A stretch of DNA of 64,000 nucleotides from Halorussus sp. MSC15.2 (GTDB lineage Archaea > Halobacteriota > Halobacteria > Halobacteriales > Haladaptataceae), in NCBI RefSeq assembly GCF_010747475.1, contig NZ_VSLZ01000005.1, positions 124,001 through 188,000 of the forward strand, in the 5' to 3' direction. The notes under the pieces are model-generated. The model was not told the DNA's origin. It searched no databases and was given only the letters and a program-made list of their open reading frames with translations. Positions 4,600 through 20,473 of this stretch are shown here, one piece after another. The position numbers and the translations under genes are program-made. The first letter of the stretch is position 1, and each line of letters starts with the position of its first letter.

Positions 4600-5298
4600 T
4601 CAGTCGTCTGCGGTGACGACTTCCTCTTCCGCGGCGGCCTCGGCGGCGGCCGCGGCGCGTTCCTCCTTCTCCTCTTCTTCCTTCTTGGCCTTGATTTTCT
4701 TCAGACGGAAGATTTCCTCGCGCTCCTGCTCTTCGAGTTTCTGCTCGATGTACTCCTGATTCTCCTTGAGTTCCGGCAGTAGCTTGAACTCCAGCGCGTT
4801 CACGCGGCGCTTGGTCGTCTCGATTTCGGTCAGCATCTTCTTCATCGCCGTCTCGACTTCGGCGGCCAGGATGATGCTCTCCAGCAGTTCCTCGTAGGCC
4901 TCGGCGGCCTCGTCGATGCGAGCGCTGGTTCCGAGAACGCCGTAGCCGCGCTCGTCGAGACCCTTGCGAACCTTGCTGGACTCGATTTGGGGCACGACGA
5001 CGCCCATGATGTTCTTGGACTCGGTGGTGATTTCGGGGTGCTCTTGGAGTGCGGCCGCCGCCCCGCGGACCGCCACGTCGCCCTCCATCGCGCGAGCCAT
5101 GTTAATCTTCTGCTGGGCGAGTTCGTAGTTCTCCTCGAGACCCGAGCGCACGTCCTGCGCCTGGTCGAGGATGTCCATGAACTCCATGATGAGACCGTCA
5201 CGCTTCTTCTCCAGCGTGTCGTGGCCCCGCTCGGAGAGTTCGATGCGGTCCTCTATCTGCATCAAATTCTTCCGAGTGGGCTTGACGTCCTTGGCCAT
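4600..5298 (-). CDS. atpD: A-type ATP synthase subunit D
   Basis: Subunit D is the central rotor stalk that couples c-ring rotation to the A3B3 catalytic head of the archaeal ATP synthase. The 232-residue sequence starts [20 protein letters not shown], the highly conserved N terminus (T-x-x-N/E-L-x-x-L/I), and has the two long antiparallel coiled coils (residues 5-75 and 120-205) expected of the family. The C-terminal Ala/Glu-rich tail is haloarchaeal. In other haloarchaea atpD directly follows atpB. Here a 7-kb secreted-protein gene separates them, so atpD needs its own promoter, and a TATA-like element is present at about 5325-5340. Confidence 0.96.
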
Positions 5299-5324
5299 CT
5301 TAGGGGGAGTTTGTGGCTCGAAGG

Positions 5325-5340
5325 GGTTAACCTTTTACAG
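5325..5340 (-). promoter_or_regulatory. Promoter of atpD
   Basis: On the minus strand CTGTAAAAGGTTAACC places an AT-rich TATA/BRE-like element 27-42 bases upstream of the atpD start. This is consistent with separate transcription of atpD now that it is detached from the main ATP synthase operon. Inferred from position and composition only. Confidence 0.45.
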
Positions 5341-5461
5341 TCGGCGCTGACTGGGTGGGGCCGGAACTCGTGAGATACTCATATGTTTACGCCACCCCCT
5401 ATTCGAGAAATAAAGAGGCGGACTGAATCAGTTTACTGGCTCGAAGTTTGCGAAGGTTGGT

Positions 5462-8400
5462 CTACTTCTCGTCGTCGTGAATCTCGTTGACTTCGGTCTG
5501 GTTGAGCGCTCGGTCGTAATATCGGACTTCGTCGATGCTGCCGACGAAGTCGCGGTCCTCGTGATTGACATGGGTCCCGATGTAGAACCCTTTGTCCGTC
5601 GCCGTATTGAGGTTTGTAGACTGCGACCAACCGTTAGTTACACTGGCAACGTTACCGTCGACGTAGAGTGTAGTGTCGCGAAGTGTATTTCCGTTTAGTA
5701 CAATTACGACGTGGTGCCACCTCCCGTCGTTGAGGTTTGTGTTCCAAACGCGGTTACCACCGTTCACTGCGAAACGAGTATTGCCGTTCGTGTTGATACG
5801 GAGGTTGAACGCGTCTCCGTCAGACGGGTTATTTTTGCCCTGTGACACCATGAGTTGTCTATCGTTCGAATACGAGGTCTTGACCCAGAGGGAGATAGCG
5901 CGATTTTCACTTCCGGACACACTGTCGAAGTTGGTCGTCACTTTATCGCTACCACTATGGAACTCGTAAGCGCTTTTTTCGACACCGGCGACGCCGAGCG
6001 TTGGGTTATTACGGACAGTTCCGTCGTGCGGGCCAACTGCGTCGTATGCAGTCGAACCGCTTGTTTCGTCGAGCTTCCAGTGGCTGACAAGTCCATCAGT
6101 CACCACTTCCTGTTTTCTTACAGTAATTCCCACAGTATCAGTAGCAACTGCACCGTTTGCGTCCGTGACGCGAACAGTTGCCTCGTACGTCCCACTGTCC
6201 GAATACACGTGATTTACCGTCGCACCAGTCGCGTCTATCGTCCCGTCACCGTCGAAGTCCCACTCGTAGGTCAGCGAGTCTCCGTCGGGGTCCGAGGAGT
6301 TCGACGCGTCGAACGTCACCGTCTCGCTCACGTTCACCGTCGTCGCCGACGCCGCCGCGTCGGCCACCGGCGCGTGGTTCACCGCGAGACTCCAGCTTTC
6401 GGTGTCAGACTTCCCGTAGCTGTCGGTGACGGTGAGCGTCACCGAGTAGTTCCCGCCGGACCCGTAGGTGTGAGTGACGTCGGCCCCGGTCGCGGTCGTT
6501 CCGTCGCCGAACTCCCACTGGTAAGTCAGCGAATCGTTAGTGTTCGGGTCGCTCGAAGCTGATGCATCGAACTGGACGGTCTCGTCGGGATTGGGTTCGG
6601 TCGGAGTGACGTTGGCCGACGCAGTCGGCGCGTCGTCCACGGTGATGGTACCGGTCGCCGTGTCGGATTCGCCGAACCTGTCAGTAACTCGGAGTTCGAC
6701 CGGATACTCACCAGCCGTGTCGTACCGATGGACCACCGAACTGTTCGAGTCCATCGCAGTCGCGCCGTCACCGAACGTCCAATCGTACGTTAGCGAGTCG
6801 CCGTCGTTGGGGTCCGACGAACTACTACCGTCGAGTTTGACTGCCTCCGAGGTGTTCAGCACGGTCCGGTTGGCTATCAGATAGGCCGCAGGCGGACTGT
6901 TCACCGTGACCGTCACCGAGTCGGTGGCGGTCAGTCCCTGCTCACCCTCGACCGTGACCGAAACGTCGTACCTTCCGGCGGACTCGTAGGTATGGTTGAC
7001 CGTTGCGTCGAGCGCGGTTGTCAGGTCGCCGAGCTTCCACTCGTAGGACGTAACGTTACCGTCGGGGTCGGTGGCGTTCGCCTCGAACGTGTGTTCGACG
7101 TCCTCTGTAACGTTACCGGGGTCGCGTATCTGAACCGATGGCGGATACGTGACGACGACGGACTGAGTGGTCGTGTTTGTCACACCGTCGTCATCAGTGA
7201 CCCGAAGCGTGACGTTCGCCGTGCCGGTCTGGTTGAACTCGGTCGAGATGGACTCGCCAGTCGCTTCGTAGTCGCCATCAGTATCGAGGTCCCACTCGTG
7301 AGTGACGACGTTACCGTCGACGTCGAAGGCGTCGGTCGCACTCAGCGTCACCGACCGATTGACAGCGACTACGGACTGGTCGATAACCGGTGTCGGTCCG
7401 CGGTTCGTGACGTTGACGGTGTGGGTAGCGGTCGCCGTCCCGTTGGCGTCGTCGGTCACGCGTACCGTGACGTCGTGCGGTCCGTCGTCGCTGAAGGTCG
7501 GGTGAATCGTACGACCGGACTGCTCGAATGTCCCATCGTCGTCTACGTCCCAGTCGTAACTGACGACCGTTCCGTCGGGGTCGCTCGCGTGGACAACTTC
7601 GACAGTCGCGGTCTCGTACGTCCGGGTGCTATCGGTGCCATTCACGGTGACACTCGGCGGAGCGTTCACTTCGACGACTTTCCGAACGACGACGGTCTCG
7701 TTGTGGTCGTTAGTACCGCGCATCCGGACCGTCTTCGTTCCGTTCGTCGAGAACGACCGAGTAGCGTTCCAACCCGTCGTCTCGTAGACACCGTCGTCGT
7801 CGAGGTCCCACTCGACTCGCTTGATGTGGTCGCGATAGCCTTCGACGGTGGAGGCGTCGAACGTAACGCTCTGACCGACGGTCGGGGTCGACGGCGTCGC
7901 GTTGACGAACATCGGCGTCGCCCGCGTGAGGTTGATGTGCCTGAGATGGGCCGTTCCGTTACCGTGGAATTCGACGATAATCTCGGTGTTAGCCCAAAGC
8001 CTCGGCGGGACGAGCGCACTGAGTGTGACGTTCTCGTCGGCAGTCAGGTTGATAGACGCAATCTTGACTCGGGGGAAGTTCCGCGTATCTGCCCAGATTG
8101 TCACCACGGTATCGCCGTCGATACCACCGACGGTGGCGTTGACCTTTTGCCAGCCGTCAATCCCGCTGCCTGTTTGCGTCCCACCACTGGAGTTGAGCGT
8201 GATGTTCCCCGGGCCAGTGCTGATACCGTCCTCGGTGACGTTCGTCCGGTCGATTCCCGTTCCGTTTCCGTCGGGGAACGAGCTGAAGTTGTCCGTCGTA
8301 TCGTTGACCGTAAAGACGGTCGAATCCCAGTTACTCTTCCGCCCAGCGAGGTCGACGGCACGTCCGCGGAGTTCGTAGGTACCGGGACCTGCCTCGAAGG

Positions 8401-8575
8401 GCAAGAGACCGAGATTCTCGGTGTTGTTAATCTGCTGCCAGTCGGTCCAGTTCCCGTCCTCGTTGGCGTCGTGGTACTGGTACTCGACGTACCGGACGCG
8501 TTCATCTACCAGCGTACGGACGAGCGGCGACCGTTCGCTTCCGACGGACGAAACCGAAATTTCGGGGGCGGTTAC
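5462..8575 (-). CDS. Giant secreted PKD/LamG protein, C-terminal part (frame 3 of 3)
   Basis: About 1,037 codons are open from VTAPEISV (about 8575) to the stop at 5462. The nearest in-frame start-like codon is a TTG at 8404, so this is a continuation rather than an independent gene. The order is a bacterial Ig/YXWD-like linker (RYVEYQYHDANEDGNWTDW), a carbohydrate-binding-like stretch, then seven PKD repeats with cores VEWDLDDDG, YDWDVDDDG, HEWDLDTDG, YEWKLGD, YDWTFGDG, YQWEFGDG and YEWDFDGDG. A C-terminal LamG/concanavalin-like domain follows (SHWKLDETSGSTAYDAVGPH ... SIDEVRYYDRALNQTEVNEI). PKD and LamG domains mediate protein or glycan contacts outside the cell. The last frame of a gene starting at 12530. 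Confidence 0.8.
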   Translation of the reverse strand, partial: VTAPEISVSSVGSERSPLVRTLVDERVRYVEYQYHDANEDGNWTDWQQINNTENLGLLPFEAGPGTYELRGRAVDLAGRKSNWDSTVFTVNDTTDNFSSFPDGNGTGIDRTNVTEDGISTGPGNITLNSSGGTQTGSGIDGWQKVNATVGGIDGDTVVTIWADTRNFPRVKIASINLTADENVTLSALVPPRLWANTEIIVEFHGNGTAHLRHINLTRATPMFVNATPSTPTVGQSVTFDASTVEGYRDHIKRVEWDLDDDGVYETTGWNATRSFSTNGTKTVRMRGTNDHNETVVVRKVVEVNAPPSVTVNGTDSTRTYETATVEVVHASDPDGTVVSYDWDVDDDGTFEQSGRTIHPTFSDDGPHDVTVRVTDDANGTATATHTVNVTNRGPTPVIDQSVVAVNRSVTLSATDAFDVDGNVVTHEWDLDTDGDYEATGESISTEFNQTGTANVTLRVTDDDGVTNTTTQSVVVTYPPSVQIRDPGNVTEDVEHTFEANATDPDGNVTSYEWKLGDLTTALDATVNHTYESAGRYDVSVTVEGEQGLTATDSVTVTVNSPPAAYLIANRTVLNTSEAVKLDGSSSSDPNDGDSLTYDWTFGDGATAMDSNSSVVHRYDTAGEYPVELRVTDRFGESDTATGTITVDDAPTASANVTPTEPNPDETVQFDASASSDPNTNDSLTYQWEFGDGTTATGADVTHTYGSGGNYSVTLTVTDSYGKSDTESWSLAVNHAPVADAAASATTVNVSETVTFDASNSSDPDGDSLTYEWDFDGDGTIDATGATVNHVYSDSGTYEATVRVTDANGAVATDTVGITVRKQEVVTDGLVSHWKLDETSGSTAYDAVGPHDGTVRNNPTLGVAGVEKSAYEFHSGSDKVTTNFDSVSGSENRAISLWVKTSYSNDRQLMVSQGKNNPSDGDAFNLRINTNGNTRFAVNGGNRVWNTNLNDGRWHHVVIVLNGNTLRDTTLYVDGNVASVTNGWSQSTNLNTATDKGFYIGTHVNHEDRDFVGSIDEVRYYDRALNQTEVNEIHDDEK

Positions 8576-9660
8576 GTCGTCTTGAGCGTGACGATGCGCT
8601 CGGTTCGGTAGCCCTTCGGGTCACGGACGACCATCTGGAGGTCGTGGTACCCCTCCGATAGCGAGAGGTGCTGGTAGATGTACCCCTCGTTGCCGACGCT
8701 TCGCCACGACGACCAGTCCGACGTTCCGGTGTCGTTGGAGATGCGATACTTGTACTCCAACTCGTTCGGGTCGGTCCCGACGTCCCACGTGTGCCACCGC
8801 AGCGAAGCCGACTCGTCGGCGCTCACGCGAACGGTCTTGCCGTGGCGTAGCTCCTGTGCCGCGGGTGCGTCGTCCAAGGTGAGTTCGGGACGTTGGGCGT
8901 CGCGACCCTGCCGGTCGACAACTTCGACCGCGGTGCCACCGTCACTGCCAGTCGTACCCGGCAGTTCGGTCGTGGCCGTCATCTGATACATCCCGACCGT
9001 AATGTTGGACCGAACGACGAGGTAGTACGTGTCCTTCGTCGCGTCCAACGTCAGTTTCTGCGTCGTCGTGGAACCGGGGTCCTCGACGTCGTGCAGTTGC
9101 GTCCCGGCGAGATCCGTAATGTTCTCCGGCCGTTCCTGCGTCAGGACCGCGTCGAACCGCGTCAAGTTTTCGGCGTTCGACTTCTGGTTCGGACGGTTAA
9201 GACGAACCGTCAGTTTGCGCTGGTCGGGAATCTCGGCGTCGTCGTCCATGTCGATTCGGTAGACGGTGTAGTCCTCGAAACCGTCTATCGAGTCGTAGAC
9301 GACCGAATCGCCGTATCGGTCGGCGGTCGGATACAGTTGCTCGGGCGTGAACAACCGACCCAGTATCTCGCCGAGACCCTGCGAGGAGGTCTTACGGGAC
9401 GTGAGATAGTCGTTCCACCGGGCACCGAGCGCGTCCTGCGTCGAGTACTGGACGGTCCATCCGTTCGTCGGCATATCCTTGGTACCGCCGAGTGTCTCCG
9501 GATACCCGTCGAGTGCCTTGGTCGTCGCAGTGTAGTCGGTCCGGAGCGAGTTCCGGAGGATACCGAGTATCTGGCGAGTCACTTCGTAGGACTGGAGGTC
9601 CTCCTCGCCCACGAGGTCGTGGACGACGCTCTGGTGGGTCTCGTCGGCGTACGCCGGAAC
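8572..9660 (-). CDS. Giant secreted PKD/LamG protein, middle part (frame 2 of 3)
   Basis: This segment of about 362 codons reads VPAYADETHQSVVHDLVGEE onward and stops at TAA 8572-8574 after IVTLKTT. The first start-like codon is an internal GTG at 9612, with coherent protein before it, so it has no proper start of its own. It contains long helices and an extracellular beta-rich region with QKLTLDATKDTYYLVVRSNI, similar to pre-peptidase C-terminal-like modules. A fibronectin/Ig-like region with SASLRWHTWDVGTDPNELEY follows. Sense resumes one base back at both ends: the upstream frame at about 9661 and the downstream frame at about 8575. Both joins therefore need a -1 shift or one missing base. 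Confidence 0.72.
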   Translation of the reverse strand, partial: VPAYADETHQSVVHDLVGEEDLQSYEVTRQILGILRNSLRTDYTATTKALDGYPETLGGTKDMPTNGWTVQYSTQDALGARWNDYLTSRKTSSQGLGEILGRLFTPEQLYPTADRYGDSVVYDSIDGFEDYTVYRIDMDDDAEIPDQRKLTVRLNRPNQKSNAENLTRFDAVLTQERPENITDLAGTQLHDVEDPGSTTTQKLTLDATKDTYYLVVRSNITVGMYQMTATTELPGTTGSDGGTAVEVVDRQGRDAQRPELTLDDAPAAQELRHGKTVRVSADESASLRWHTWDVGTDPNELEYKYRISNDTGTSDWSSWRSVGNEGYIYQHLSLSEGYHDLQMVVRDPKGYRTERIVTLKTT

Positions 9661-12530
9661 GATTGGTACGTCTCGTTGAGCAGGACCTTGCGCTCTTCGA
9701 GGAGTTCGTTCACGCGGGCGGTGTCGTTGGCCGCTCGCGCCGCCTCCAGTTCGTCGGAGTTCTCCGACAGCGCGCGTAGGTTCTCGTGAAGTCGGGTGTA
9801 GTTCCGCGAGTTGTAACCGGGGTCGTCGAGGTGGCGTGCGACGGCGTGGCTCTGCGCTCCGCGGATGAAGTACGAACCGCTAGAGATGGCATTCTCTAGC
9901 GTCTGTGCGCGGGAGAACGTCGATAGAAGGTTCGAATACGATTTTTTCGCCGTCCTCGATAGCTCGTACGGAGGTATCGAGAGGATACCTTCACTCGTTT
10001 TTGCAAAGGACATGCCCTTCCGTTGAAGCGGGTTCTTGTCCTCGACGTTGTACGTGTGGTACGTGAGGCCCTCTATGCGGCTTTCCAACTCGTCACGTAC
10101 GTTCTTGGCGGTCCTGTTCGCGTACTGCCGTTCTTTCTGCTTCCAGTAACTCGCGTTCAGCGAGCGGTTGTGCATCTCTGCGTAGATGCCGCCCGAGTCG
10201 ATGGCGACGCTGAGGTTGGTCGCTTCCGTGGTCGCGTCGCTCTCGACCGATTCGTAGGCAACCGTACTGGACCACGTGTCGGCTTTGTCGCGTCCGGACT
10301 CGTTCCGGTCGTACTCGTCGTCGTCCCAGAGGACGACGCGGACGTTACGCCGGTCGGCCGACGACTCCAGTTGACGCGAACTCAGAACGACGGTCTCGTT
10401 GCTCTCGTTCCGCGGGGTAACGCCGAGAATCCGATGGCGTTCACCGTCCACGTAGACCTCGTAGTAGGGGTCGCCCCCGCTCCCGTGGTCCAAGCGGAGA
10501 CTCGTGTTCGCCTCGATTTCGAGCGCGAAGTCCGAGAGGTTGCCGTCGCCGTTACGGTCGATGCGATTGATGAACTCGACGGACTCGATGGCGGTGGGCG
10601 CTTGGTGGAGTCCGTCTTCGGTCGCAACCGCGAACCGACCGACACCGGGCGAGTCGGCGACGAAGGTGAACGTGGAGTCGTTCACGGCCACCAATGCGGT
10701 CGGAAGACGGGACCACGAGTCGTTGACGTATCGGTACAGACCCAGTTCGTCGGGGTCCTCCGAGAACGCGCTGGAGTTCACCGAGAATCGGAACCGGGCG
10801 TTCTCGACCGCTTCAGAGGTCGGTGACGCGCCAGAGAGACGGAAGTGGCTCAGACCGGTGACGTTCGAATCGTTCGCCCCCACCGCCGGTACCGAGACGT
10901 TCCGGGTCTGGACGAGGGTCGCGTTCGTATGGGCATCGGCCGCGAACGTCAAGTTCAGTCGAGAGAGTCGCGTTCCGGTCGTCTCGGCCAGTTCGGTTTC
11001 GGGGATGTCGGCGGTCAGTCTCCCACCACTGTCGACCGTCGGGGCGGTAATCGATATCTCGTTCGGCCCGACGCGGGTCACGGTCGCCTCGACGGTGCCG
11101 GAAACGGAGGCGTCGATATCCAAGCTCCCGCTACGAGTCGTAGCGTCGTTGAGAGTCACGGAAACCGAGTACACGTCGTCCGTGTCGGGGTTGATTACGC
11201 CCGCGTATCGCACCACGATAGTGTCGTTCGCCTGTAGGGTGTGGGTAGCGTTGAATGCGACTCGGAGGGTGCTGTTCTCCACGGCAGTCACTGCGTCGAT
11301 GGCATCAGTGGCGTTCAGTCCAACGTCGATGTCGCCGTCGCCGTCACGGTCGATACCCGCGGTCACGTCTCGAAGGCTCACGTTCTGCACGTCGGCACTC
11401 TCGTTCGGGTACTGCACCTCGACACTATCGAGGGCGTTCCCCGCCTCGGTGGAGTTCTCGCCGACTACGTAAGTCACTTCGTGGGTCGTCCGTGCGCTCG
11501 TCGTCTCGTCGAGCGACTCGATGAGCGTCGTCGTCTCGTCGTCGCTACTGGTCCGGTTCGTCGCCGGATACGCGCTCACACCGACCGTGGGATTCGCAGC
11601 GATAACAGACCCGTTCGCATCTCGAACGGGGCCAACGGACCCGTCGAGGGTTGCGTATCGGAGTTGCCCGTCGGTACCGAAGTGGATGATTTCGGGACTC
11701 GCATCGCCGACCCAGTCGAATCCAGCCAGCGTCGAAGCCGAGGCGGACGTGTAGTCAGATTTCACGACGGTCGTTTCGCCGGATGCACCGACGAGAAGGA
11801 GGTCGTCGCCCTCGGAGAGGACGGGAACCCGTGCGACACCGTCACCGTCGAAATCCGTGGGCGAACCGACACTTCCGTTCTCGTTCACGTCGTAATAGCC
11901 CGTACTCCGCACCTGACCGTCGTCGAAGTACTTGATACCGCGAGACTCACCGAGGAAAACGATGTCCTCGTCCCCATCACCGTCGAAACTGGCGACTCCG
12001 AGGACGGCGGAAACAGGAACGTCGAGAACACGCTGTGGCGTAGCACCTACTTCCGCACGGTAAATTTCGTCTCCGGCACTGGCGTTGGCGTACAGTACGC
12101 CGACGCGACCGTTTCCGTCCCAATCACCCACTCCGAGAAGTGTCGTAGTGCTGGTCACGTCCGTCGCCAGTTGCTGGCGCTCGCCGCCGCCATCTACGAT
12201 TTCCACGGTTTCGTTCGCTACGTACGGAAGTTCTATCCGATTGTCGGCATCGAAGTCGGCCATCGTTCCGAGCGCGGTCCCGGAAGCGTTCACCGAATCG
12301 GTCGTCTGATTCTCGTCGACGAACGTAAAATGGCCATCGTTGGCAACCGCGAGCGACTGATTCTGCAATATCGGTCCCGTGTTCCCGATAGCACTCGCTA
12401 GCGGTTTCGGTGAGCTATCATCTACACGTGACGGAGCGAACGCGTCGTTCGCCATCGCAGGCGTTCCGACAGCCGAGATTAGCAGAATTATCGCGAACAA
12501 TACGGCGATTCCGTCGTCGATATGACTCAT
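9579..12530 (-). CDS. Giant secreted PKD/LamG protein, N-terminal part (frame 1 of 3)
   Basis: The gene starts with an ATG at 12530 and a Sec signal peptide (AVLFAIILLISAVGTPAMA, residues about 9-27). Residues about 75-310 carry five FG-GAP/VCBS-like calcium-loop repeats (DFDADNR, DWDGNGR, SFDGDGDED, DFDGDGV, DWVGD). Later comes a region like the PGF-pre-PGF domain (ARFRFSVNSSAF ... LGLYRYVNDSWSRLPT ... FVADSPGVGRFAVATE). A helical Asn/Arg-rich segment follows. Meaningful sequence ends at about 9661 (LLNETYQS); the remaining 27 codons are out-of-frame and Arg/Thr/Ser-rich. With two bases restored the full product would be about 2,356 residues. It is probably cell-surface associated. Confidence 0.8.
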   Translation of the reverse strand: MSHIDDGIAVLFAIILLISAVGTPAMANDAFAPSRVDDSSPKPLASAIGNTGPILQNQSLAVANDGHFTFVDENQTTDSVNASGTALGTMADFDADNRIELPYVANETVEIVDGGGERQQLATDVTSTTTLLGVGDWDGNGRVGVLYANASAGDEIYRAEVGATPQRVLDVPVSAVLGVASFDGDGDEDIVFLGESRGIKYFDDGQVRSTGYYDVNENGSVGSPTDFDGDGVARVPVLSEGDDLLLVGASGETTVVKSDYTSASASTLAGFDWVGDASPEIIHFGTDGQLRYATLDGSVGPVRDANGSVIAANPTVGVSAYPATNRTSSDDETTTLIESLDETTSARTTHEVTYVVGENSTEAGNALDSVEVQYPNESADVQNVSLRDVTAGIDRDGDGDIDVGLNATDAIDAVTAVENSTLRVAFNATHTLQANDTIVVRYAGVINPDTDDVYSVSVTLNDATTRSGSLDIDASVSGTVEATVTRVGPNEISITAPTVDSGGRLTADIPETELAETTGTRLSRLNLTFAADAHTNATLVQTRNVSVPAVGANDSNVTGLSHFRLSGASPTSEAVENARFRFSVNSSAFSEDPDELGLYRYVNDSWSRLPTALVAVNDSTFTFVADSPGVGRFAVATEDGLHQAPTAIESVEFINRIDRNGDGNLSDFALEIEANTSLRLDHGSGGDPYYEVYVDGERHRILGVTPRNESNETVVLSSRQLESSADRRNVRVVLWDDDEYDRNESGRDKADTWSSTVAYESVESDATTEATNLSVAIDSGGIYAEMHNRSLNASYWKQKERQYANRTAKNVRDELESRIEGLTYHTYNVEDKNPLQRKGMSFAKTSEGILSIPPYELSRTAKKSYSNLLSTFSRAQTLENAISSGSYFIRGAQSHAVARHLDDPGYNSRNYTRLHENLRALSENSDELEAARAANDTARVNELLEERKVLLNETYQSFRRTPTRPTRASSTTSWARRTSSPTK

Positions 12531-12647: not shown

Positions 12648-14072
12648 TTAGTCCGCAGCGACTTCTTCGGCTTCTTCGTCCGCGTCTTCGGGGTAGTACT
12701 TCTCGATGAGTTCCTCGTCGATGCGGTTGAGCGCCTCCTTGGGGAGCATCCCGAGGAGGTCCCAACCGAGGTCGAGCGTCTCCTCGATGTCGCGGTTCGT
12801 GTCGAAGCCTTGGTCGACGAACTCCGTCTCGAACCGGTCGGCGAAGTCGAGGTACTTGTTGTCGCGCTCCGAGAGCGCCTCGCGGCCGACGATGTTCACG
12901 AGGTCGCGCAGGTCTTCACCCTCCGCGTACGCGGCGTACATCTGGTCGGAGACGTCGCCGTGGTCCTCACGGGTCAGCCCCTCGCCGATACCGTCGTCCA
13001 TCAGGCGCGAGAGGCTCGGCAGGACGTTGATAGGCGGGACGACGCCCTGCGAGTTGAGGTCGCGGTCGATGTAAATCTGGCCCTCGGTGATGTATCCGGT
13101 GAGGTCCGGAATCGGGTGGGTGTCGTCGTCGCCGGGCATCGTGAGGATGGGAATCTGGGTGACAGACCCCTCGCGGCCCTCGATACGACCCGCGCGCTCG
13201 TAGAGCTGGGCGAGGTCGGTGTACATGTACCCGGGGTAGCCACGGCGGCCCGGCACCTCTTCGCGGGCCGCACCGATTTCGCGCAGGGCCTCACAGTAGT
13301 TGGTCATGTCCGTCAGGATGACGAGCACGTGGTAGCCCTTGTCGAACGCGAGGTACTCCGCAGTCGTCAGCGCGAGGCGCGGCGTGACCGTCCGTTCGAC
13401 CGCGGGGTCGTCCGCGAGGTTCATGAAGACGACCGAGCGTTCGAGCGCGCCCGTCCGCTCGAAGTCCTCCATGAACTCGTTGGCCTCTTCGGCCGTGATT
13501 CCCATCGCGCCGAACACCACTGCGAACTCGGAGCCTTCGTCGTCCTCGCCCGCTTCTTCCTCTTCCGGCACGGTCGCCTGTCGCGCAATCTGGAGCGCGA
13601 GTTCGTTGTGCGGAAGCCCGGACCCGGAGAAGATGGGGAGCTTCTGGCCCCGGACCAGCGTGTTCATGCCGTCGATGGCGGAGACGCCGGTCTGGATGAA
13701 CTCCTCGGGATACTCCCGGGCGGTCGGGTTGATGGCCGCGCCGACGATGTCGCGTCGGTCGTCCGGGACGATTTCCGGGCCGCCGTCGATGGGGTTGCCG
13801 GAACCGTCGAGGACCCGACCGAGGAGGTCCTCGGTGACGGGCATCTTCATCGTCTCGCCGAGGAATCGGACCGAACTCTTCGTGTCGATACCTTCGGTCC
13901 CCTCGAACACCTGAATCGAGACGAGTCCGTCGCTCGATTCGAGGACCTGTCCGCGCTTGGTGTCGCCGTTCGGCGTCTCGATTTCGACTATCTCGTCGTA
14001 CCCGATGGGTTCGTCTACCTCCGCGAACACCAGCGGACCGCTAATCTCCGTGATTGTTTGGTACTCTTTCAT
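12648..14072 (-). CDS. atpB: A-type ATP synthase subunit B
   Basis: Subunit B is the non-catalytic nucleotide-binding subunit of the A3B3 head. The 474-residue length is standard. Features are the N-terminal barrel ([20 protein letters not shown]), the degenerate P-loop region [20 protein letters not shown] (about residues 150-170), the conserved [20 protein letters not shown] and the arginine-finger region [13 protein letters not shown]. The ATG at 14072 begins three bases after the end of atpA, showing tight coupling. It is the last gene of the H-I-K-E-C-F-A-B series here. Downstream, 117 AT-rich bases lead to the giant gene instead of atpD. Confidence 0.97.
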
Positions 14073-18302: not shown

Positions 18303-20473
18303 TCAGTCCTGAGTCGTGTAGTTCCGGTCGTAGCCGAACGGCTCGTACTCCTCGCCGCCGCCCTCGTAGAACTTGCCGAAGAACTCGACGTACTCGAGGC
18401 GCACCGCCTGTAGACCGGCACTGGTAATACCGAGCGCCAGCACGAGGAGGTGCCCGAAGACGAGGACGAGTAAGCCGACGAACAGGCCGACGATACCGGA
18501 GTGAACCAGTCCGCCGAACATGTGGCTCGTCACCTCGTGACCGTGGTACATCGTTCCGACCTCGGGCATGTGGCCGATGCCGAAGTGCCACTCGGCGTGG
18601 CTACCGTGGCCCGTAACGAAGACGCCGAAGAACAGGAGATTGACCACGAAGGCCATCCCCGCCTTGGCGAGCAGCACGGCCGCGATTCGGGTGTACGAGA
18701 GCGCGTCCGACAGGACGCTCAGGCTCTCCAGCGCGCCGATGAGGATACCGGGACCGCCGAAGTGCCGGACTTCACCCGCGATGTAGAGGACCAGTCCGAG
18801 TCCTCCGAGCGCCAGACCGAGCGTGCCAACCTGCGGCGAGAAGCCGCTGAACCCGAGCGAGAACGGCTCGCCGGCGAAGATGGTGAACAGGAAGTTGGGC
18901 TTCTGGTTGCGGGCCTGCGTGCTGAGAATCCACGTCCAGACACCCGCGAACAGCAGGACCCACGAACCGCTCTCCAGAACGGCGTCGACGGGGTCGTGGT
19001 TCAGCTCCTCGACGAAGCCGAACAGGTAGCCGACCGTCATGTGGAGGAGTCCCGCGAGTATCGAGACGACCAGCCACGTCAGCGCGTAGTCGGCGTTGAC
19101 CGGCTGGAGACCCTTCTTAATCGGCGGGTGACCGCCCCAGACGACATCTCCGAGCATGTGCAGGCCGAAGATTTCGCCGTACAGGACGCCGAACAGCGCC
19201 GTGAAGCCGCCCGCCCACAGCGCGATGCCGCCGAGACTCTTGATTGCGTCGTTGTCGAAGCTACTGAACAGCCAGAAACCGATGCCCATGTACAGGAGTC
19301 CGTATCCGAGGTCCCCAATCATGAACCCGAAGAACAGCGGGAACGTCAGGAACAGGACGACCGTCGGGTCGAACTCGAAGTACTTCGGCCGGTTGATGGT
19401 CTCGACCAGCAGTTCGAACGGCTTGAACGCGCCGGGGTTGTCCTGCACGACCGGCGGTTGGTCGTCGTCCATCGTCGTGCCGCCGTCCGCGGCAACCTCG
19501 TTCGCGTCGGGGTCTTCCGGACCGTGGGCCTCGTGGGCGTCGTACGAGGCGCGTTCGAGTTCGTCTACTTCGACGTGGTCGCCGACGGTGTCGCCCAGCG
19601 CGCTCGCCAACTCGGTGTAACGCTTGGACGGAATCCAGCCTTCGGCGACGAAAGCGTTCTCGGTGGTTGCGAAGTTGAGCGGCGCTTCGGCCTTCTGCAC
19701 GTCGATGCTCAGCTTCTCCTCGGCCGCGAGCAGGAAGCCCGCGGTGTCGAGTTTGACGTTTTCGAGTTCGTTCTCGACGTCGTCGAGTTCGGACTCGAGT
19801 TGCTGGCGCTCGTGTTCGAGTTCCTCGGCGTAGTCACCGGGGCTTCCCTCGGCATCGGGGATTTCCAGCGCCGCGAAGTCGACGCCGACCAGCGCCTCGT
19901 CGAGGGCGTCTTCGTCGGCGGCGTCCGCGGGGTACGCGAAGACGGCGACGGTGCCGTCGGCGGTGAACGTCTCGAACTCGCGGATGCTGTCCGCGGTTTC
20001 GAGCGTGTCGTGAATCTCGTCGGCGTCGCCCTCACCGACTGCGACCTGTAGCGTCTGGTACCCCGACAGCAGGTCGAGGTCGATACCGAGGTCGGCGAAC
20101 GGCTTCACCGAGTCGAGTCGCTCCTCCACGTCGCGGAGGTCCTCGTCGAGTTCGCTGCGTCGGTCTTCGAGTTGGTTGACCTCCGACCGGACGGATTCGA
20201 GTTCGTCTTCGAGTGCTTCGTCGGTGACGATGCGACTCGTCCGGCGTCCTCCTCGTCGATGTCGAGAATGCTCTCGAGCGAACGGATAGTGACGAGTTTC
20301 TCGGACGCCTCGTCGGCCCCCTCGACGGGGTCGCCCGGTTCGAAGCCCTCCCACGAACCGTCGTAGTCCGAGAGGTGGACCAGATTTAGCTCGTGGATGG
20401 TCTCGATGACGTCGTCCATGACGGCCCGCGAACCCGTCACGGACACCTTGCTCATTCGTTCAGGTCTGAGCAT
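18303..20473 (-). CDS. atpI: A-type ATP synthase subunit I (a subunit), one frameshift
   Basis: Subunit I provides the stator half-channels for ion flow. The N-terminal cytoplasmic part starts MLRPERMSKVSVTGSRAVMD, a conserved haloarchaeal start, and reads normally to IDEEDAGR at about 20240. Then the sense frame moves back one base and continues RIVTDEALEDELESV into the coiled coil and about seven or eight membrane helices (for example FFGFMIGDLGYGLLYMGIGF, the core with LSYTRIAAVLLAKAGMAFVV, and VFGHLLVLALGITSAGLQAV with the channel region near the C terminus). The restored protein would be about 723 residues, normal for the family. One base is missing near 20232-20245. In an essential gene this points to a sequence error or a very recent lesion. 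Confidence 0.9.

Follow-up and report, generated by a model that had tools for sequence, protein, structure and literature searches.

Single-base indels in long-read assemblies can split genes and inflate the pseudogene count: in the work describing Kastor, such indels lay in short runs and were found via relatives, and correction lowered the pseudogene rate from 23.3 to 5.6% (PMC12007338). Systematic errors at short motifs were tied to DNA modification in the paper on Modpolish, where nanopore data carried them at modified pentamers, mostly as mismatches rather than indels, with the excess in Listeria at GCAGC and GCTGG; that paper also names CCGAC as an example of a user-specified motif (PMC10687267). 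The genome of Halorussus sp. MSC15.2 resembles both cases, as its assembly appears to drop single bases throughout, mostly in short runs and often at CCGAC/GTCGG, a pattern to be expected if modified, GC-rich DNA was assembled from long reads without correction. It differs from the Kastor case, in which errors fell mainly at homopolymers in bacteria, in that here, whatever the platform, losses dominate with a CCGAC/GTCGG bias, and from the Modpolish case in that the events are losses. Since the motif-linked errors in PMC10687267 are mostly mismatches, modification of CCGAC is put forward here as a suggestion and not as a result, and we infer both the sequencing platform and the base modification behind the losses.

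The gene in question lies in a window of 64,000 nucleotides (the whole stretch of DNA that was analysed), and we consider it highly probable that both of its frame changes are single-base losses from sequencing or assembly in one intact gene between atpB and atpD, which would encode a secreted or surface protein of approximately 2,350 residues. Translation of the minus strand in all frames revealed one coherent protein split over frames A, B and C (Table 1). The initial annotation had described the same arrangement, with -1 changes near 9661 and 8575, and its reading was borne out by retranslation of the frames and by an end-to-end alignment with the homologue in a genome of the same genus (G005). 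Frame B is open from 9879 to 8575 (435 codons stop to stop) and frame C from 8620 to 5465 (1,052 codons, with the stop at 5462-5464), while the match of frame A to the intact gene stops near 9663. The N-terminus of A is hydrophobic and signal-peptide-like, as judged by eye without a predictor. Pfam placed seven PKD_4 stretches and one Laminin_G_3 domain in C, above the curated cut-off, in agreement with the seven PKD repeats and LamG domain proposed earlier, and a scan at E 1e-3 recovered no family in A or B. The PGF-pre-PGF-like module of the initial annotation gained a weak NCBIfam match in A (PGF_pre_PGF, TIGR04213; 30.1 bits vs a cut-off of 28), and its FG-GAP-like repeats were dropped, as neither Pfam nor NCBIfam confirmed them.

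Table 1. Features of the reconstructed gene and its surroundings, in positions of the window.
Feature	Position	Strand	Description
atpD	4600..5298	-	downstream neighbour of the gene
Leader just upstream of atpD	5299..5342	-	about 44 bp nearly identical in this genome (G000), G004 and G005; DNA beyond differs
Frame C	5462..8578	-	seven PKD domains; LamG domain at the C-terminus
Join 2 (B to C)	8572..8590	-	-1 sense; contiguous in G005
Frame B	8575..9660	-	conserved region without a Pfam family; last ~110 residues modelled as an Ig/PKD/FnIII-like sandwich
Join 1 (A to B)	9655..9670	-	-1 sense; contiguous in 7/7 homologues
Frame A	9582..12530	-	ATG at 12530, 983 aa; signal-peptide-like N-terminus, PGF-pre-PGF-like stretch
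atpB	12648..14072	-	upstream neighbour of the gene
atpI	18303..20473	-	ATP synthase subunit I, frame-shifted near 20231-20240 (window 20225-20245)

We compared the three pieces with related genomes. Because A, B and C all align end to end with one ORF of G005 (60%, 66% and 64% identity, respectively), the chain is not a product of chance. The G005 homologue occupies the same locus with the same neighbours, forms a single ORF of 2,348 codons between stops (2,337 aa when counted from a start codon), and leaves 0 residues between the pieces at either join. Piece B had matches in only three of 99 genomes, namely its own, G005 (66% identity) and, weakly, G012, and a two-row profile of B extended these to eight of 392 genomes from the order, counting its own and G005; a search of the genome contigs with piece B found no relative. 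In all seven homologues of B, the end of A, B and C lay within one ORF of 2,246-4,031 aa, and the A-B join was contiguous to 0-1 residue. At the B-C join of the six homologues besides G005, the best match to C begins 145-234 residues past the match to B in the same ORF; the tail of B matches again inside this interval in four of these six, and in G340 an alternative alignment of C begins directly at the end of B. The initial annotation had named homologues that stop at the joins as the sign of separate genes, and none of the seven does so. Three separate genes would account for the length and openness of each frame, but join 1 interrupts a conserved stretch that runs unbroken through all seven homologues, and in B and C the first start codons (9612 and 8404, respectively) fall downstream of the joins, inside conserved sequence, which leaves this alternative extremely unlikely. 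Given that the A-B join is continuous in all seven homologues and that G005 lacks no residue at either join, A, B and C are, on sequence comparison, one gene and not three.

The reconstructed protein resembles other large haloarchaeal secreted PKD proteins (in G005, G340, G181, G212, G167, G333 and G330), in which the end of A, B and the PKD regions share one long ORF. It differs in its C-terminus, which carries LamG, whereas the three distant homologues scanned (among L121-L126) carry PQQ/BamB-like repeats together with 9-16 PKD stretches. None of the six distant homologues lies beside atpD, five being on another contig and one approximately 260 kb off.

The sequence at the joins bears on two further explanations. 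In favour of programmed -1 frameshifting, which would yield one protein from three frames, the frame changes are both -1 and successive frames overlap at each join; however, no slippery heptamer of the form X XXY YYZ was found at either join, the homologues are read in one frame, and two shifts would be needed in one gene, and we therefore hold this mechanism to be very improbable. Phase variation, among the options raised initially, commonly targets large surface proteins; here the switch would be slipped-strand mispairing. No tandem repeat was seen at the joins, though, and the sole run of at least four identical bases there is five C just downstream of join 2, so that slippage of this kind is scarcely credible. 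By comparison with G005, join 2 has a CCGAC/GTCGG context and join 1 is not at the motif; alignment does not fix the exact lesion at join 1.

A genuine, very recent pseudogene, in which two real single-base losses are too young to have been followed by further damage, is the main rival. A close relative (G004, ~94% DNA identity) is without a copy at the locus; loss is thus evidently tolerated, and the gene would be dispensable and could decay. Against decay, a search of the 7 kb gene for a further stop or frame change found none besides the two joins, and dN/dS relative to G005 was similar in all pieces (A 0.29, B 0.33, C 0.28; rough values at dS 0.8-1.1), so that all three look constrained and none relaxed, although a very recent gene loss would also show neither relaxed constraint nor further lesions. 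Moreover, decay of one gene leaves the losses of the same kind in atpI, in the same window, and in many other genes unexplained. We regard a recent pseudogene as unlikely. Among the three options of the initial annotation, missing bases are the best supported, phase variation is set aside and decay is not favoured.

To place the two breaks in the context of the assembly, contig C5 (255 kb) and a 120-kb part of contig C7 were compared to syntenic sequence of G004. A total of 322 kb aligned, at ~94% DNA identity in most blocks, with 663 indels of all sizes. Clean-flanked single-base losses numbered 59 in this genome vs 29 in G004, and those within predicted genes numbered 23 vs 5 (P = 5e-4; the gene census used a simple ORF chooser that kept some antisense ORFs). 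When the genes of G005 were set against contig C5, five frame-changing joins were detected in five genes among 67 matched, vs none among 62 for G004; of the two breaks studied here, one appears in this list. Comparisons made in the reverse direction list joins as well, many of which reflect antisense ORFs or are the above breaks met from the opposite side. With the measured rate, 7.07 kb should hold 0.6 events, and the probability of two or more is 0.13; two breaks in so long a gene thus need no special cause.

The coding losses were unevenly distributed over sequence contexts. Ten of the 23 fell at CCGAC/GTCGG with base runs allowed for, against a baseline of 5.9% of coding bases (P = 3e-7), while 13 lay outside the motif and 18 were within runs of two or more identical bases. 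As the motif was first noticed on contig C5, contig C7 served as an independent test, and C7 alone gave four of eight losses at the motif (P = 7e-4). Strict motif overlap held for nine of 23 losses overall and three of eight on C7; when noncoding losses are counted as well, 11 of the 59 clean losses here strictly overlap the motif, vs 0 of 29 in G004. This concentration is a possible sign that the motif is modified, and the bias thus hints at DNA modification. A search for N6/N4 methyltransferases returned two matches in this genome vs seven in G004 and singled out no enzyme for CCGAC.

The 23 coding losses are spread over 21 predicted G004 genes (counted by eye); 17 of these 21 were scanned and 14 have a family match. 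The families hit include V-type ATP synthase subunit I, MutS, an MscS-type channel, a MATE transporter, an aldehyde dehydrogenase and an ABC permease. The two parts of atpI are in one frame in 7/7 relatives, but not here, and annotators would put a false start downstream. A match to orc1/cdc6 among the broken genes was set aside, as its G004 counterpart also seems to be divided between two ORFs. Both atpI and mutS are conserved and probably essential, and a living archaeon in which the genes listed here are truly broken seems unlikely. Taken together, the intact homologues, the excess of single-base losses, their motif bias and the similar breaks in atpI and mutS lead us to read the two frame changes as errors of sequencing or assembly. 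This reading clears a false pseudogene. By extrapolation, the assembly may contain approximately 300 further false frame breaks, and loss of function read from it, including that of ATP synthase and mismatch repair, should therefore be distrusted.

PKD and LamG domains are common in proteins that serve in adhesion or carbohydrate binding outside the cell. The restored product would begin with a signal-peptide-like N-terminus, followed by the PGF-pre-PGF-like stretch, a conserved region with an Ig-like end, the seven PKD domains and LamG, and judging from these domain names it probably attaches to carbohydrate or other extracellular surfaces. AlphaFold2 models of piece B had a mean pLDDT of 42 with a two-row alignment and of 65 with eight rows, the latter being good only at approximately residues 119-362; the N-terminal part of B is helical in the model. 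Structural comparison with VIA-align 2 matched B residues 253-362 to Ig, PKD and macroglobulin-like domains (Z 9-10), including an archaeal PKD domain (4xed; Z 9.4, rmsd 2.7, 92 residues aligned) and 3prx_A (Z 9.8, 96 aligned). A Foldseek search of the PDB with the whole model of B was not usable (TM 0.17-0.23 among the first 50 rows). The Ig/PKD-like sandwich predicted for B is a common fold and names no function. With this sandwich making up the final 110 residues of B, the protein would consist of many sandwich domains in a row, preceded by a region that is modelled less well.

The atp operon of haloarchaea has been described with atpD apart from its other genes: in Nab. magadii atpD is unlinked from atpHIKECFAB (PMC3403918), and in Hqr. 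walsbyi it was reported as its own, monocistronic transcription unit (PMC5496347). The present locus is similar in this respect; the passages concerned mention neither variable cargo nor a secreted protein in the atpB-atpD interval, and in the literature searched on the haloarchaeal atp operon and rhodopsin no title or abstract opening describes such cargo. The place of the gene between these two neighbours was absent from the initial annotation. The surrounding genes are those of the A-type ATP synthase, with atpI, E, C, A and B upstream and atpD downstream. At the same place in G004, 1.5 kb separates the matches to atpB and atpD and holds, on the opposite strand, an ORF of RimK-like ATP-grasp type.

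We surveyed this interval across the genomes. A match to atpD was present in 98 of 99 (own included), and atpB and atpD were close and on the same strand in 91. The gap between them was below 310 bp in 48 of these, 400-600 bp in 5 and at least 900 bp in 38, the last class reaching 9.8 kb and occurring in 11 of 17 families; these counts come from related genomes, which are not independent. The control gap between atpA and atpB did not exceed 23 bp in 92 of 95 pairs, and partial matches were involved in the remaining three. We examined the 43 gaps above 400 bp (40 besides those of G000, G004 and G005), with cargo families taken from scans that included 53 of the predicted cargo ORFs. Cargo included ABC-transporter genes, EamA-type transporters, AMP-binding enzymes, a lanthionine-synthetase-like protein (G008) and a 1,416-aa PKD protein (G002).

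A bacteriorhodopsin-like gene was found in six gaps (G009, G012, G033, G046, G058 and G082), with Pfam confirming all six tested, and some of these gaps also held BAT-type regulators and lycopene-cyclase-like genes. The rhodopsin-bearing gaps (L081, L060, L077, L083, L087 and L089) come from six genomes in four families.

From its conserved leader, atpD likely has a promoter of its own, and insertions upstream would therefore be tolerated without cutting off subunit D. We see an evenly balanced case for regarding the atpB-atpD gap as a recurrent site of gene gain and replacement, at which such a promoter lets genes settle, the cargo of rhodopsin, BAT-like regulator and lycopene-cyclase-like genes is functionally tied to ATP synthesis, and the secreted giant is one cargo among others. 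If it holds up, the cargo site would show gene gain within an essential operon in a form that lends itself to testing.

Elsewhere in the window, a search against Rfam returned no match. ARAGORN called a 97-base tRNA-Thr at 717-813 on the plus strand, opposite a Pfam-supported short-chain dehydrogenase gene (534-1367), and this call is probably a false positive.
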